Under the pieces are notes generated by a model. The model worked only from the letters and a program-made list of their open reading frames with translations, ran no database searches and was not told the DNA's origin. A program made the position numbers and the translations under genes. A DNA stretch of 49,062 nt from a virus: IMG/VR virus record IMGVR_UViG_3300044612_001598, positions 1 through 49,062 of that record. The stretch is one strand, 5' to 3'. Of the stretch, positions 7,908 to 42,956 are shown one piece after another (position 1 is the first letter of the stretch; each line of letters starts with the position of its first letter).

Positions 7908-7981
7908 GGGCCCCGATCTATACCCCCCTATATACACCCCCCTATATAGACCCCCCCCTATATAGGGCCTCGGGCCCTGTG
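7904..7981. repeat. C-tract/TATATA repeats inside a 10-bp inverted repeat
   Basis: Perfect arms CACAGGGCCC (7904-7913) and GGGCCCTGTG (7972-7981) enclose 58 bases holding three units of C6, C6 and C8 each followed by TATATA. The complementary strand has three G-runs of 6-8, so hairpin or G-quadruplex forms are possible. A DnaA-box-like TGTGGATAA follows at 7978. Confidence 0.75.
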
Positions 7982-8088
7982 GATAACCTGTGTATAACTA
8001 ATGTGACCTACATCATATGTGTGCTACATCACAATGTCCGTTTTGCCCTATTTATACCCCTCAATTTGTCAGACCCCCCTGCTATACT
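7978..8088 (+). promoter_or_regulatory. Early control module and promoter for 8142
   Basis: In order: TGTGGATAA (7978-7986, matches the DnaA box TTATCCACA on the other strand); two imperfect palindromes, TGTGA-CCTACA-TCATA (8002-8017) and TGTGT-GCTACA-TCACA (8018-8033); an ATGTCCGTTTTGCCC box immediately after; TTGTCAG (8066-8072), N10, TATACT (8083-8088). The same order recurs before later early genes. Confidence 0.6.
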
Positions 8089-9070: not shown

Positions 9071-9268
9071 ATGACTTACACTGTAACACTAGAAACCTTT
9101 AATGGTTCTACCAAAAAAATCAACCTTGCCTCTAAGGGTGCGGTTGCTCAATTCATCTCAACTTATCCAACTCAACTGCCTGTTGGCGTTGCGGTAAAAA
9201 TCGCTTGCGATACTCTTGGAATTAGTGGCACACTTCGTGGCACTCGTACACTTACTAACTCAAACTAA
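9071..9268 (+). CDS. Small hypothetical protein
   Basis: 65 residues, beta-rich at the N-terminus. Good Shine-Dalgarno (GAAAGGAAG) and a full promoter module upstream. No family recognised. Confidence 0.6.
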   Translation: MTYTVTLETFNGSTKKINLASKGAVAQFISTYPTQLPVGVAVKIACDTLGISGTLRGTRTLTNSN

Positions 9269-9288
9269 AGAATAGGAAAACTAAAAAA

Positions 9289-9495
9289 ATGGTAAAAGTA
9301 AATCACTCTCTAAACTTCGTTACAGAATTTGACGAAACACATCCAATCTCTCAGCGATTTTTGCAATTAGATGAAATCTCACAAATTAAAATGCTTGAGT
9401 CAATGTTAAAGGACCTACTTGTTCCTGTACTGCTTCCAGAAATTAACAAAATTAACGAAGGTGGCTCTTATGCAATTCTTAAGGTGGCAGAATAA
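9289..9495 (+). CDS. Small hypothetical protein
   Basis: 68 residues, acidic N-terminal half and a Leu/Val-rich helix after it. Overlaps the next ATG by one base (TAATG). Confidence 0.55.
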   Translation: MVKVNHSLNFVTEFDETHPISQRFLQLDEISQIKMLESMLKDLLVPVLLPEINKINEGGSYAILKVAE

Positions 9496-9677
9496 TGATG
9501 ACACGCAAGGACTACGTAGAAACTGCAAAAATTCTAAATCAGTTTACAACTGAAATGGACTCAAAAACTTTTCAAGATTTAGTTTTTGAATTTAGCGAAT
9601 GGTTCGCTTCAGACAATCCAAGATTTGACGAAAATAAATTTTGGGATGCCTGCGTAAAAGAAATGGAAAATGCATAA
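9495..9677 (+). CDS. Conserved small phage protein
   Basis: 60 residues. The pattern TRKDYVETAKIL...FA(S)DNPRFDENKFWDAC is one I recognise as common among short conserved phage and bacterial hypothetical proteins. Function unknown. TAATG junctions on both sides place it in a tight operon. Confidence 0.65.
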   Translation: MMTRKDYVETAKILNQFTTEMDSKTFQDLVFEFSEWFASDNPRFDENKFWDACVKEMENA

Positions 9678-10153
9678 TGAAAAAACTAATAGTAATACTA
9701 TCACTAGTACTGTTGCCAATTGTCTCAACACAATCAGCACAAGCAGACTGGAGACACTTATACACACCTCAGCAATTAGATGCTATGGCATCAAACATAA
9801 AGCAAAGTGTAATAATGAAGTGTTATGTTAAGGGAGTTCCAGTTCTTCAAACTCAGCCTGTTGTTTACAGGACTGCTGGTAGAGCACCTTACACAATGTC
9901 AAACATGGCAGTAAAACTTAAAAGCACTCAAGGACTAATGACAAAAGAATTTGTTAATAATCCAACTAACGCTGAATACATGAAGTGGTGGTATTCTTTA
10001 ACAGAACCTGGAAACTTTCCTCATCCAGAAACAGGAAATAAAAGAAATGAGTTTTCTCCTTGCGTTGGCATTGTTAATGGAACTTTAGACATTGACAAAT
10101 TTGCAAAAGATTCATTGCGTTGGGTTCGTAAACCTCAAACCCTAATACCTTAA
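9677..10153 (+). CDS. Secreted hypothetical protein
   Basis: 158 residues from the coupled ATG at 9677. The N-terminus is a typical Sec signal peptide: KK, then a hydrophobic core, and an AQA-type cleavage site near residue 24. The mature part holds two Cys (in MKCYV and SPCVG) that could form a disulfide. It is unusual among the early cytoplasmic-type genes and could act at the host envelope, for example in exclusion. No family recognised. Confidence 0.6.
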   Translation: MKKLIVILSLVLLPIVSTQSAQADWRHLYTPQQLDAMASNIKQSVIMKCYVKGVPVLQTQPVVYRTAGRAPYTMSNMAVKLKSTQGLMTKEFVNNPTNAEYMKWWYSLTEPGNFPHPETGNKRNEFSPCVGIVNGTLDIDKFAKDSLRWVRKPQTLIP

Positions 10154-10187: not shown

Positions 10188-10331
10188 AATTTTGGCCCGA
10201 GTGATCCCTCGGCGCTGACGGCGTGTCGTACACAGGTTATCCACAGGCTTACTTTTGTGAGATTTATCACATAGAAAATGTCCGTTATGCCCTATTTTGG
10301 ATTTGATTTTGTCAGTGAAAAATGGTACGCT
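10188..10331 (+). promoter_or_regulatory. Early control module for 10378
   Basis: GC hairpin GCCCGAG/CTCGGCGC near 10195; DnaA-box-like TTATCCACA (10237-10245); perfect TGTGA-GATTTA-TCACA (10256-10271); ATGTCCGTTATGCCC box; TTGTCAG (10309-10315), N10, TACGCT (10326-10331). Confidence 0.6.
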
Positions 10332-16028: not shown

Positions 16029-16248
16029 CAAGCGTAAATGGGGCCCCGAGGGAATGTGATATAGGTCACATAATATTTCTAATAAAATAACTTTACGATA
16101 AAAGAATATTTTTCCTGGAATTTCTTTACGATAGGTTTGATTTTTTTCCCAAACCTTGCTACAATTAATATATAACCCAGTAACAGGAGATACCCATTTG
16201 TCAGTGCCCTCTGTTACACTTATAACATAACCCAAACAAAGGAAAGAT
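16029..16248 (+). promoter_or_regulatory. Control module for 16249
   Basis: GGGCCCCGAGGGA; perfect TGTGA-TATAGG-TCACA (16055-16070); TTTACGATA twice; TTGATT-N17-TACAAT near 16137-16165 with CAAACC/GGTTTG motifs like those at 19080-19760; then TTGTCAG (16198-16204), N10, TACACT (16215-16220). Two promoters seem to be stacked. Confidence 0.55.
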
Positions 16249-19079: not shown

Positions 19080-19760
19080 AGGGCAAATCATATCAAATTG
19101 GACATATTGGACAAACCATATTTCCAAAAGATCATTACGAACCTTTAAAAATTTTTCCCCAAACCAGGGGTATTACGAAGGACAAATTCTTTTCCCCAAA
19201 CCTTATACCATACAAACCTTTATTTGTCAAACCTTAATATCAGGTGTATAATGTATTTATGACCCCAAGACACTTTGCAGAATATGCAAAAAGAGATCCC
19301 AAAGGCTATCAAGCATTCTCAGATAATATGTGGAATGGTTTTGTATCTATTACTAAGCATGTTCCTATAGTTAATAGGTTCTTCTCTTTCTCTCCCGCCG
19401 AGTTTCAGGTGGATCAAGAAACTGAAAATAAGATTACGAACGCCTAAAAATTTTTCCCCAAACCTGGCCGTTTTTGCCAGGGGATAAAGAGATTATATAC
19501 CAAACCACTAGTACTAAAACATAGACAAACCTTTTATCCTGATTTTTAAATATTTATCAAACCTTTATATATTTTTATTACGATTTATCGACATTTTCTC
19601 CTGATTTTGGGAGATTTTTTTATGCATAAAATGGGCTTGACAAACCATAATTTATAGGTTATAATGCCCAAACCATGCATATAAAGGTTTGACAGATATG
19701 AAGGTTTGTGGTAAAATGCGGCTATAAAGGTTTGGAGATATGAAGGTTTGGCCGTTAGAG
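19080..19760. repeat. CAAACC/GGTTTG iteron region, candidate origin
   Basis: About 15 copies of CAAACC or its complement. Those left of ~19675 read CAAACC and those right of it read GGTTTG, giving overall dyad symmetry. ATTACGA occurs five times, and AAAAATTTTTCCCCAAACC occurs twice (near 19147 and 19445). A small gene (19259-19447) lies within it; otherwise 19448-19893 has no gene. Iterons, AT-richness and adjacent DnaA boxes suggest a replication origin or partition site. Confidence 0.6.
19259..19447 (+). CDS. Small hypothetical protein, leaderless start
   Basis: 62 residues. TTGTCA-N17-TATAAT-N6-ATG supports this start over the GTG 15 bases upstream. Aromatic-rich (RHFAEYAKRDPKGYQAF). Sits inside the iteron region. 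Confidence 0.55.
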   Translation: MTPRHFAEYAKRDPKGYQAFSDNMWNGFVSITKHVPIVNRFFSFSPAEFQVDQETENKITNA

Positions 19761-19787
19761 ATTACGACCCCATCTATAAAAGGGCTC

Positions 19788-19820
19788 CCTAACCCACTTC
19801 CCTCCACTTCACTCCACTTC
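19788..19820 (+). repeat. CCACTTC pyrimidine repeats
   Basis: Four close copies of CCACTTC or CCACTTCC form a pyrimidine-only stretch. Such tracts can form unusual DNA structures. It lies between the iterons and the DnaA boxes. Confidence 0.6.
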
Positions 19821-19855
19821 TAGACTGTCTAATAATATAATCAGTAACATATTTC

Positions 19856-19875
19856 TGTGGATAACTTGTGGATAA
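19856..19875. other. Tandem DnaA-box-like sites
   Basis: TGTGGATAA at 19856-19864 and 19867-19875, two exact matches to the DnaA box (TTATCCACA on the other strand) two bases apart, next to an AT-rich stretch. Together with the iterons this is the densest origin-like signal in the window. Confidence 0.55.
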
Positions 19876-19893
19876 CTATGATACAATAATCCA

Positions 19894-20046
19894 ATGCACA
19901 AATTGGAATCATCATACAATAAGTTTATTCAGCCTACAGTAAGCATCCTATGCTTTGACTGTGGGGGTATGTATGAAATGCCATATGGGGTATCAAACCC
20001 TACATCCAAGTGTCCAAAATGCCAGGGGATCAAACCTCTTTTATAG
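19894..20046 (+). CDS. Small zinc-ribbon protein, leaderless start
   Basis: 50 residues with CFDCGG and CPKCQG, a clear zinc ribbon. TACAAT ends 6 bases before the ATG. Its end overlaps that of the convergent gene by 17 bases. Confidence 0.6.
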   Translation: MHKLESSYNKFIQPTVSILCFDCGGMYEMPYGVSNPTSKCPKCQGIKPLL

Positions 20047-20844: not shown

Positions 20845-20924
20845 CCAATATTGCCCCTGTGGGGCATAGAAAGGTTTATAACTCCTATTTTGCGCCGAAC
20901 TTTAAAGAATGCTATAATTAAAAT

Positions 20925-21812
20925 ATGGAAAAAAATGCGAACATATTGAATATGCTTCGCTTAGAGATGTACAAAACTACTGTACTTAATAGGTACGGGA
21001 TGCCTTATGGTCCAAATATTATTATTGATCCTAAGACAAAGTACGTTACAAATTCCCTTGGATTTCGCACAGCAGAGTTTGACGATAAAACACCAGATTT
21101 TGTTTTTGCTGGATGCTCTCATACCTGGGGATGGGGAATTGATGATTCTTTAATTTGGGGCAATCGTATTGCAAAAACTATGGGGATAGAAACACGAAAC
21201 CTTGGCATTAGCAATGGTGCTATAACAACAATCATAGATAATCTAATTGCATACTTTGATAAATTTGGTAAGCCAAAAGTATTGTTTTGTTTGTTTCCAA
21301 GTTTAGCAAGAATGAATTTTTGGACCAATAGAAATGTTTTTATTGGAAGGCACGGTTTTGATTTTGCAAGAGATACTGCCGTTCCAAGTCAGGGTAACTC
21401 ACCGAAGTATTCACAAAAACCACATAAGTTGGAAGAGGTTCTAACCTCAGAACTACCAACTTTATTATCACTAAAATATATTTTAAATTTTGAGCAATAC
21501 TGCCTTTCTAATAATATTATTTTAAAATATTCATTTTGGGATCCAGTAGATGATCGGATGATGGATGGATTACCGCACAATAATAGTTATAGCGGGTATG
21601 TCAAATCTGATTCTGCCCTATGGGTCAGAGATGGTATTGTTGAAGTCTTTAATGGGTCTAAAGATTGTCACGCACCAACCAACGAATTGGAGCAGTACTC
21701 ATGGCTTCATGGAATGGATATAGAGTTATCAAGTTTACCCCACATAGGGGCACATAGACAGATTCACTATTATGAACTATTTCTTAATGAATATGGTAAG
21801 ATTTATTCATGA
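20925..21812 (+). CDS. SGNH/GDSL-type hydrolase-like protein (paralog A)
   Basis: 295 residues. DFVFAGCSHTWGWGI gives the block-I nucleophile Ser of the SGNH fold, followed by TRNLGISNG (block II Gly/Asn) and a C-terminal HIGAHRQIHYY that may supply the catalytic His. SGNH enzymes act as esterases or O-acyl editors on glycans and lipids. TTGCGC-N17-TATAAT-N6-ATG marks the start. Related proteins sit at 26703-27743 and 47813-48616. Substrate unknown. Confidence 0.7.
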   Translation: MEKNANILNMLRLEMYKTTVLNRYGMPYGPNIIIDPKTKYVTNSLGFRTAEFDDKTPDFVFAGCSHTWGWGIDDSLIWGNRIAKTMGIETRNLGISNGAITTIIDNLIAYFDKFGKPKVLFCLFPSLARMNFWTNRNVFIGRHGFDFARDTAVPSQGNSPKYSQKPHKLEEVLTSELPTLLSLKYILNFEQYCLSNNIILKYSFWDPVDDRMMDGLPHNNSYSGYVKSDSALWVRDGIVEVFNGSKDCHAPTNELEQYSWLHGMDIELSSLPHIGAHRQIHYYELFLNEYGKIYS

Positions 21813-21892: not shown

Positions 21893-21917
21893 ACTACAAA
21901 CATGATATAATGATTAG

Positions 21918-22043
21918 ATGAAAAAGTCTAAATGTTATTTTTGCGACGAAGAAGCAACCCATTACGATATTGTAGTAAATCACGCCGAATGGGTGGTTGC
22001 GGATGTTTGCCTTTCCCACCTTTCTATGGGCCTTGTTTCCTAA
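21918..22043 (+). CDS. Small zinc-finger-like protein, leaderless start
   Basis: 41 residues with CYFCDEEA and VADVCLSHL. TATAAT ends 6 bases before the ATG. Similar layout (two Cys, then CxxH) to the hidden gene at 30831-30980. Confidence 0.55.
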   Translation: MKKSKCYFCDEEATHYDIVVNHAEWVVADVCLSHLSMGLVS

Positions 22044-22797: not shown

Positions 22798-22812
22798 AGG
22801 TATAATTATATT

Positions 22813-22986
22813 ATGAGTATAGATGAAATGACATTACGAGAAGAGATTGCAAGGGCTATTGAAGCCATATCAATTGAAGAGTCTGTAACCAACGCAGTTG
22901 GTATGAGGATGCTTGCAGCAAAGGTTGCAAGAGGAGAAAATAACTATATGACAAGTATGTTTGAAAGACAGGAGGATTTCGAATGA
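22813..22986 (+). CDS. Small helical protein, leaderless start
   Basis: 57 residues, helical (EEIARAIEAISIEESV). TTGACA-N17-TATAAT-N6-ATG, the most consensus promoter in the window. ATGA overlap with the next gene. Confidence 0.6.
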   Translation: MSIDEMTLREEIARAIEAISIEESVTNAVGMRMLAAKVARGENNYMTSMFERQEDFE

Positions 22987-24464: not shown

Positions 24465-24881
24465 ATGGTAACAAAGTACGCTATGGATCTATTCAATGAT
24501 CCTTTTTTTATTGGCTTTAACAGAGAGTTAAATCGCCTAAATACTGCACACAAAACAAACTCACAGTCATATCCTCCGTATGATCTTCTTAAACTAGATG
24601 AAGACACATATCAGATCTCTTTGGCTATTGCTGGTTTTTCAAAGGAAGATATTGATGTATCCGTAGATAATGGAACACTAATTATTAAGGGTGAGATTGT
24701 AGAAGTAACAGATGCAGAGGTAGTTCATAAAGGCATCGCAGGAAGAAAGTTCGTAAGATCTTTTGCACTGGGAGAATATATGGAAGTAACTTCTGCAGAA
24801 CTTAAGGATGGCATGCTGCATGTTCATGTAGTACGCATTGTTCCTGAAGAAAAGAAGCCTAAATCTATTAAAATTAAGTAG
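24465..24881 (+). CDS. Hsp20/alpha-crystallin small heat-shock protein
   Basis: 138 residues, typical length for the family. N-terminal LFNDPFFIGFNRELNRLN is IbpA-like. The alpha-crystallin core runs from DTYQISLAIAGFSKEDIDVS to an ELKDGMLHVHV...PEEKKPK end, with GxLxxxx equivalents. Such proteins hold unfolding proteins in solution; phage versions may help particle assembly or stress during infection. GAAAGGGG ribosome site. Promoter TATAAT near 24402. Confidence 0.92.
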   Translation: MVTKYAMDLFNDPFFIGFNRELNRLNTAHKTNSQSYPPYDLLKLDEDTYQISLAIAGFSKEDIDVSVDNGTLIIKGEIVEVTDAEVVHKGIAGRKFVRSFALGEYMEVTSAELKDGMLHVHVVRIVPEEKKPKSIKIK

Positions 24882-40857: not shown

Positions 40858-42291
40858 TTACCTACAGATTGTAAAGTTATATTCTTTTTCCCACTTAATA
40901 ATATCAATTTCATCATTAAGTAGTGGCTGCCCCTTAATATTAAGACTTGTATTTAATAGGACTGGAACACCAGTTTCAAGATAAAACTTATTAATTGCTC
41001 TCCATAGACCACGATGCTGGTTCTTATTCACAGTCTGAACTCTTGATGTACCATCTGCATGAACCACAGAAGGTATCTTTTCAGGCTGTAGGCACTTGAC
41101 CGTATACTGCATGTAAGGGCTTGTAAAGTCCATATCAAACCATTTAGAGGCACACTCCTCCATAACCACTGGGGCAAATGGTCTAAACAACTCTCTCTGT
41201 TTAATTAAATTAACCTTGTCTTTTATTAGTGGATCTCTAGGATCTGCAAGGATGCTTCTGTTTCCTAATGCCCTTGGTCCGTATTCGGCTCTTCCTGTTG
41301 CTACTGCTACGATTCCATCTTTTAATATACCGTCCACAATTTGCTGAACAGGATACTCTCCTCCAAGATCATAACCAAGATATGGAGTCTTCCAATCAAG
41401 GTGCTTTCCGTGCAGGGCTGCTGCAGCGCCCAAAGAACTACCAGCATCTCCAGGGTTAGGCATGATCCAAATCATATCAAAAATATTCCATAGTAAAGTA
41501 TTTGCAGAAGAGTTAAGAGCACAACCACCCATGAATACCAAATTATTTTTTCCAGTCATTCTTTTTGCCATACGCATAAACTGATTTAGCCTTTGCTCGT
41601 AAACCATCTGAACTGCTGCAGCGATATCAAATCTGTCTTGCTCAGTAATTACCATTCCCCAGTCATTGATTCCTTTATGAAAGTTATACTTTTGCTGATC
41701 ATACTCTGGAAAATACTCATCTACTTCTTTGTAATATCTTTTCCAGTCTCCGTATGCAGCCATACCCATCATAATATATTCTTCTTGGTTTGGCATAAGT
41801 CCAATCAGTTCTGTAAATGCAGAGTAGAATAATCCAAAACTAATGGGATAGTTCTGCTTATACTTAAGTTTAATCTTGTCGCCTTCACCAACCCAAATTG
41901 TTGATGTATTAAACTCACCAATTGCATCTAGCACTACAATACATGCATCATCAAATGCGCTTGTATAATAACCTGCTGCTGCGTGAGAGTAATGATGACC
42001 AAAGTTTTTTCTTGGTAAGTCTCCAAGTTCTGTAGACTCAAACCATGGCCTGTCTCCACCAAAGCCTCCACGAGTCTTTACTCTAAGTTTCTTAAGTAAA
42101 GGCTTTTCGTAATATGCTATTTGATCTGGATACCCATATTGCAGTGCATCTTTTATTAGTTCTTTATTCGTAAACCAGTCATTTTTTTGTTTGCTGTATC
42201 TTTCTGCATGCCCAGCAAAAAGAATTTCTCCATCTTTTATTAAAGATACTGAAGCATCATGAGTGGTTTCGTTTACCCCTAAGATAATCAT
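40858..42291 (-). CDS. Carbamoyltransferase (NodU/CmcH family)
   Basis: 477 residues. GVNETTHDAS, FGHHYSHAAAGYY (His99, His100, His103), VVLDAIGE and MGGCALNSSAN match the O-carbamoyltransferase N domain, with the C domain (YGPRALGNRSIL...LFRPFAPVV) at the end. Uses carbamoyl phosphate to carbamoylate hydroxyls, for example on sugars. Known in Nod factor and antibiotic pathways; phage forms are thought to modify glycans or nucleotides. ATGA overlap with an oxygenase. Confidence 0.9.
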   Translation of the reverse strand: MIILGVNETTHDASVSLIKDGEILFAGHAERYSKQKNDWFTNKELIKDALQYGYPDQIAYYEKPLLKKLRVKTRGGFGGDRPWFESTELGDLPRKNFGHHYSHAAAGYYTSAFDDACIVVLDAIGEFNTSTIWVGEGDKIKLKYKQNYPISFGLFYSAFTELIGLMPNQEEYIMMGMAAYGDWKRYYKEVDEYFPEYDQQKYNFHKGINDWGMVITEQDRFDIAAAVQMVYEQRLNQFMRMAKRMTGKNNLVFMGGCALNSSANTLLWNIFDMIWIMPNPGDAGSSLGAAAALHGKHLDWKTPYLGYDLGGEYPVQQIVDGILKDGIVAVATGRAEYGPRALGNRSILADPRDPLIKDKVNLIKQRELFRPFAPVVMEECASKWFDMDFTSPYMQYTVKCLQPEKIPSVVHADGTSRVQTVNKNQHRGLWRAINKFYLETGVPVLLNTSLNIKGQPLLNDEIDIIKWEKEYNFTICR

Positions 42292-42956
42292 TCTGCTCCA
42301 GTTGAATCTCTTTTTTCGTCAAGAGGAACGTTGTGGTACCAGTTTGGCAGTGCATACCTTGGGCCACGTGTGACTGGATACACTTCGTGAACGTACAAGA
42401 AGTTTGAAGGAAAAAATAATACGCTTCCTGCTTCTGGCTTAAACTTTAATCCAGACTGCCTGAACTCAATTTCTCCACCCTCATAGTCATCATTTAAGTA
42501 TAAAAGAACAGACAAGACTCTTGTGCTAATGCCTTGGTCTTGGTGTGCTGGCAGATGACCAGTCTTGTCGTACTTAAGCAGGTGCATAGTTTTTTCTCTA
42601 GACTTTATATTTTTTTCAGCAAATGGATAAAGTTCAGTTGAATAGTGACTTAGGGTTCTATCAAGTGCACCAAATAGTTCGTTAGATATAAACGTTTGTT
42701 CTTTTAGATATATATCTGATTTTGAAATATCTTGCGCCTGTGGTATAAACTTTTGCATATTAAAAGTAATCTTGTTTTCGCCTTCTCCGTAAGTCCATGG
42801 AATCCATGGCTTTACTGATGTCATAAAAGGTGCTGGCTTGTCTTTTTGATATCTCAAATCAAGTTCTTCAATCTTTTTAATCAAACCATATGGATCATTT
42901 ACTATATTTTTATAATAAACCATTCCAAGATCTAAGACTTCAAAATCATTCGTCAT
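42288..42956 (-). CDS. 2OG-Fe(II) oxygenase, prolyl 4-hydroxylase type (copy 2)
   Basis: 222 residues. HLPAHQDQG (His138, Asp140), YEGGEIEF, VLFFPSNFLYVHEV (His190) and RGPRYALP (Arg200). Iron and 2OG ligands are all present. Coupled to the carbamoyltransferase downstream and copy 3 upstream. Target inferred as protein proline or glycan. Confidence 0.88.
   Translation of the reverse strand: MTNDFEVLDLGMVYYKNIVNDPYGLIKKIEELDLRYQKDKPAPFMTSVKPWIPWTYGEGENKITFNMQKFIPQAQDISKSDIYLKEQTFISNELFGALDRTLSHYSTELYPFAEKNIKSREKTMHLLKYDKTGHLPAHQDQGISTRVLSVLLYLNDDYEGGEIEFRQSGLKFKPEAGSVLFFPSNFLYVHEVYPVTRGPRYALPNWYHNVPLDEKRDSTGAE

Follow-up and report, generated by a model that had tools for sequence, protein, structure and literature searches.

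A conserved region of repeats, promoters and paired DnaA boxes at a predicted terminal-repeat edge: a candidate replication origin in an uncultured relative of Streptomyces cluster BE phages

Repeats, promoters and DnaA boxes at the locus

The stretch of DNA analysed here (the window) is a 49,062-bp virus fragment, IMG/VR record IMGVR_UViG_3300044612_001598. Between positions 19112 and 19750 it carries 15 copies of CAAACC, where about 0.3 would be expected by chance in 639 bp. Eleven of these are in forward orientation (19112–19674) and are followed by four on the minus strand (19686–19750), which read as GGTTTG on the plus strand at 19686, 19703, 19729 and 19745. The original prediction of about 15 copies with a flip near 19675 is borne out, the change in orientation falling between 19674 and 19686. 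Both this motif (57 copies of CAAACC/GGTTTG against 24.8 expected, a number reached in 0 of 100 shuffles) and ATTACGA (17 against 3.9 expected) are enriched in the window as a whole. ATTACGA occurs exactly five times in the interval, as had been stated, always on the plus strand (19134, 19172, 19433, 19577 and 19761), and forms part of a bipartite unit in which TTTTCCCC follows ~20 bp on (an approximate consensus of 368 units). The description of these repeats as iterons did not hold, as the copies are without a fixed tandem period, are irregularly spaced and belong to two motif families, CAAACC and ATTACGA...TTTTCCCC.

The interval originally delimited, 19080–19875, contains the repeats and boxes attributed to it, but also a small gene (19259–19447, plus strand), so that the repeats fall into two blocks, 19112–19233 and 19433–19767. 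This gene, apparently leaderless, encodes 62 aa, belongs to no Pfam family and has a similar ORF in relatives. The first block (plus strand) holds five forward CAAACC copies and the ATTACGA motifs at 19134 and 19172, in units of the form ATTACGA...TTTTCCCCAAACC. In the second, six forward CAAACC copies and the ATTACGA motifs at 19433 and 19577 occupy 19433–19674 (plus strand), and its least stable 40 bp (19541–19580) fall in the bottom 0.04% of window positions for stability. The last ATTACGA (19761–19767, plus strand) lies 33 bp upstream of a conserved core block. As claimed, 19448–19893 holds no credible gene, the ORFs there being on the minus strand, spurious-looking and no longer than 51 aa. 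Many genes look leaderless, in that a TATAAT or similar -10 box precedes the ATG by 6 bp, an arrangement common in actinobacteria; sites of this type lie at 19247–19261, 19883–19896, 20919–20927, 21907–21920 and 22802–22815.

Three plus-strand promoters, each overlapped by CAAACC, were recognised within the region. P1 (19224–19252; TTGTCA-17-TATAAT-N6-ATG) is that of the small leaderless gene. P2 (19637–19665), ~157 bp upstream of the core block, is a consensus sigma-70 promoter (exact TTGACA-17-TATAAT) with CAAACC at both the -35 element and the expected start point (TTGACAAACC...TATAATGCCCAAACC); it is found unaltered in 85 of 102 relatives and with a single mismatch in the remaining 17, and all of them keep the 17-bp spacing. 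P3 (19689–19717; TTGACA-17-TAAAAT) is retained in most aligned relatives. The same motifs recur at an early promoter at 16.1 kb (16092–16172, plus strand; two TTTACGA, GGTTTG, CAAACC and TTGATT-17-TACAAT), where CAAACC is present without an exact DnaA-box pair, and several relatives carry TTTCCCCAAACC at a matching distance. Given this recurrence at a second promoter and in relatives, the sequence suggests that the CAAACC and ATTACGA motifs are probably regulatory sites. Because CAAACC overlaps strong promoters, the one at 16.1 kb included, the repeats resemble operators at least as much as initiator iterons.

Downstream of P3 lies the core block, CCACTTCCCTCCACTTCACTCCACTT (19794–19819, plus strand), made up of three CTCCAC-like units ~10 bp apart and nearly invariant in relatives. 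It is followed by an AT-rich stretch (19829–19855, plus strand) with an invariant ATCAGTAA, a possible unwinding site. Positions 19830–19889 fall within the least stable 1.4% of 60-bp windows, but 19528–19587 is even less stable (0.26%). The two exact DnaA boxes reported at 19856–19875 are present as TTATCCACA on the minus strand (19856–19864 and 19867–19875), at +62 and +73 relative to the core block. Six exact copies of TTATCCACA occur in the whole window, against 0.6 expected from base composition. A second DnaA-box pair (TTATCCACA and TTATACACA; 7978–7997, minus strand) lies 11.8 kb to the left, and several relatives likewise have a pair 9–13.7 kb to the left of the core. The pair at 7978–7997 and a single exact box at 10237–10245 are near what is probably the other edge of a terminal repeat.

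Phage identity and conservation of the architecture

The DUF932-type gene of the window is ~53% identical to its counterpart in cluster BE Streptomyces phages. A near-complete relative of 103 kb, in which most proteins in common with the window are 85–100% identical, encodes a DnaE polymerase that shares 55% identity with the BillNye enzyme, together with DnaB helicase, primase and a UvsX-like recombinase. These identities place the window among relatives of the Stanwilliamsviridae and, judged from its sequence, the phage is an uncultured relative of the Streptomyces cluster BE phages. A near-mode DNA search against named phages gave no match, and a distant-mode search gave short matches only, mostly around the DnaA boxes. 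Near-complete relatives have their own DnaB, primase, DnaE and recombinase genes, while no phage-borne DnaA was found in the eight records searched. No phage initiator gene was found among the neighbouring genes scanned, and evenly spaced iterons are absent from the region. Genes for a repressor or for lysogeny were not recognised in the window. The window also encodes an HSP20 small heat-shock protein (24465–24881; Pfam E 1.3e-18) directly after five tRNA genes, and adjoining genes for a Nol-like carbamoyltransferase and a 2OG-Fe(II) oxygenase (40858–42956).

Relatives with the same layout were brought in by a neighbouring gene and, separately, by a DNA pattern. The core block was present in at least 119 viral contigs, and the architecture recurs with near-fixed geometry in about 100 distinct IMG/VR contexts. 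Of the 94 distinct contexts with enough flank, 88 have ATTACGA within 60 bp upstream of the core block, usually at -33, and three or more GGTTTG copies precede the block in 87. In 84, two or more DnaA boxes follow it, typically at +62 and +73/74. Across 33 aligned relatives the core block and ATCAGTAA were invariant or nearly so. About 10% of relatives have lost the DnaA boxes while keeping the core block. The ORFs immediately downstream differ between relatives, which argues against the region being merely a leader for a single conserved gene. Mimicry of a host oriC was considered and rejected, since 20 of 21 matching genome contigs were without the window's architecture and the remaining one resembles a phage contig placed in a Bacteroidota bin. 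The contig CANGYR010000020.1, binned in a Chitinophagaceae MAG, carries the full repeat, promoter and DnaA-box architecture and is probably a misbinned phage.

With P2 and P3 strong and conserved, and ~200 bp of conserved non-coding sequence after them, a leader or structured RNA transcribed from these promoters is also conceivable. However, RNAalifold predicted no pairs across 33 sequences, no Rfam family other than tRNAs was matched, and conservation is confined to short motifs at fixed spacing. We therefore regard such an RNA as highly improbable, and the lack of a predicted fold or Rfam family argues for a DNA element.

Position relative to the terminal repeat

When aligned by eye with the sequenced ends of BE phages, and in line with contig ends, the window has a predicted direct-terminal-repeat edge at 19787/19788, with the repeat to the left. 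Among 170 loci inspected, three contigs stop or start close to the core block: one has its end at -7 and the other two open at -9 and -11. Fewer than ten other true contig ends lie within 400 bp. The pattern is suggestive, although assembly breaks at shared sequence could look identical. Two near-complete contigs, G013 and G016, open near window positions 10–11 kb, which suggests that the other repeat edge lies there. The BE right-end motif GGGCGCACTATTTG was also considered as a packaging mark and gave no match above chance in the window.

Cultured BE phages show a comparable arrangement. The terminal repeat of NootNoot measures 10,787 bp here, matching the published length, for which the ends were defined from reads (PMC5764925). 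Its equivalent non-coding region (119910–121187) straddles position 120300, where the right terminal repeat begins; TTTACGA units fall within the repeat and DnaA boxes beyond it, one of them 62 bp from the edge; the corresponding distance is 62 bp in MulchMansion and 60 bp in each of StarPlatinum and MindFlayer. By homology with these phages, and from a handful of contig ends, a long terminal repeat probably has its edge at the core block, with the repeat motifs and promoters inside and the DnaA boxes ~62 bp outside. In Loccivirinae the DnaA cluster lies ~5–6 kb from a short repeat, and so DnaA boxes and boundary are not obligatorily joined. TTTACGA units also recur in short intergenic gaps in the right arm of Loccivirinae (Annadreamy, BillNye), opposite to the direction of the genes, which suggests a family-wide regulatory element. 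We dropped the idea that the reversed TTTACGA unit is a sigma-factor promoter, as it would presumably be antisense to the early genes in the window's clade.

A site at a probable repeat edge may alternatively serve packaging or DNA entry. The region could be a hub of early promoters and operators adjoining the packaging cut site, with CAAACC as the operator for a regulator of P1–P3, a core block that terminase recognises or cuts, and DnaA boxes that do no more than tune transcription or titrate host DnaA while replication starts elsewhere. The overlap of CAAACC with the -35 element and start point of consensus promoters, its recurrence at 16.1 kb, and a core block that coincides with the predicted repeat edge and persists where DnaA boxes have been lost are all consistent with this. 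It leaves unexplained the fixed distance of the DnaA boxes from the block in 84 of 94 contexts and the Loccivirinae clusters far from the repeat edge, and we consider it less probable than an origin. Less probable again, yet a serious rival, is a T5-like injection-stop signal, in which a repeat-rich DnaA-box site would pause entry once the terminal repeat has gone in, until early proteins allow entry to resume. Repeats and DnaA boxes have been named as hallmarks of the T5 injection-stop region (PMC13250531). The annotated T5 region (9140–10149), inside the terminal repeat, has tandem TGTTGATAA/TGTGGATAA boxes and repeat arrays, and the DnaA cluster of BE phages lies ~7–11 kb from the right end. 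Against this, the T5 boxes are inside the repeat, whereas those of the window are outside its predicted edge.

Evidence bearing on a replication origin

We favour, with a probability of roughly 0.45 and hence somewhat below even odds, a composite control region at the terminal-repeat edge at which replication would start. Repeats, AT-rich DNA and paired DnaA boxes in near-fixed geometry across a large clade make the locus a good origin candidate, and the original proposal of an origin is partly supported. The DnaA-box cluster expected of a DnaA-dependent origin is present, as two exact boxes in the window and at least two in most contexts. The conservation of P2, a phage helicase without a phage DnaA, transcription through the site and the DnaA cluster in the matching non-coding region of cultured BE phages also count in favour.

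Other observations count against an origin. The CAAACC and TTACGA motifs are also found at a plain promoter, the boxes are missing from ~10% of relatives, further DnaA-box pairs lie 9–13.7 kb away, and another part of the region is less stable than the AT-rich stretch next to the boxes. BE satellites without a replicase, considered as a natural origin test (MiniFlayer and MulchRoom), have no copy of the region (PMC10690885 and sequence comparison) and lend it no support. A shift in GC skew elsewhere had been put forward as refuting an origin here; because skew follows gene orientation, this comparison was uninformative in either direction, and coding-strand third-position skew fitted no simple model.

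For a composite control region we infer the following course of events. The strong early promoters P1, P2 and P3, studded with CAAACC and ATTACGA...TTTTCCCC regulator sites, would lie inside the repeat, and the conserved terminus block, AT-rich stretch and paired DnaA boxes just outside it. After the genome enters and its ends join, transcription from P2/P3 would pass through the block and help to open the AT-rich stretch, with a CAAACC-binding factor setting the timing of firing. Host DnaA bound at the boxes would then recruit the phage DnaB helicase, primase and DnaE polymerase, and replication would start there. An origin, a promoter and packaging hub and an injection stop are not mutually exclusive and can coexist. 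More speculatively, and with a small chance of being right, a site bound by host DnaA at the repeat edge may couple entry, early transcription and replication start in unrelated phages with long terminal repeats (T5-like phages and actinophages), or may serve as an origin devoted to re-copying the terminal repeat ahead of packaging.

Comparison with known systems

The component parts are of known kinds. In the open-access papers searched, we found no description of their fixed arrangement across the clade, nor of an origin or a packaging or entry signal in these common actinophages. Origins built on iterons and DnaA boxes, in plasmids and lambdoid phages, combine repeats and AT-rich DNA with DnaA boxes or a transcribed origin. 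The window has the repeats, AT-rich DNA and DnaA boxes in common with them; unlike them, it has no recognised adjoining initiator gene, its repeats are unevenly spaced, and they overlap promoters. The stoperators of cluster A mycobacteriophages are short, asymmetric sites of regulation that occur both at promoters and between genes. The window's repeats are likewise short, asymmetric and promoter-associated or intergenic, but are concentrated in one region, with no repressor or lysogeny gene recognised.

There is also a close likeness to BE phages (Boydwoodruffvirinae: NootNoot, StarPlatinum, MindFlayer and MulchMansion), in which the region likewise comes after the DUF932 gene, the repeat contains TTTACGA units and a DnaA box lies 60–62 bp outside its edge, the edge being a predicted one in the window. 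By contrast, they have no CAAACC array (NootNoot has other repeats) and the block has diverged. The conserved module of ~200 bp is a precise target, and cultured BE phages make this reading testable.

T5, from an unrelated phage family, shares with the window a position at a repeat edge (predicted for the window), two repeat families and tandem DnaA boxes ~12 bp apart, but its boxes lie inside the repeat, and an injection role for the window would follow by analogy. T5 9140–10149 carries two tandem pairs of DnaA-like boxes at this spacing, much like the pair of the window's clade. The parallel raises the question of why DnaA boxes should lie near the repeat edge in phages with terminal repeats of roughly 10 kb.
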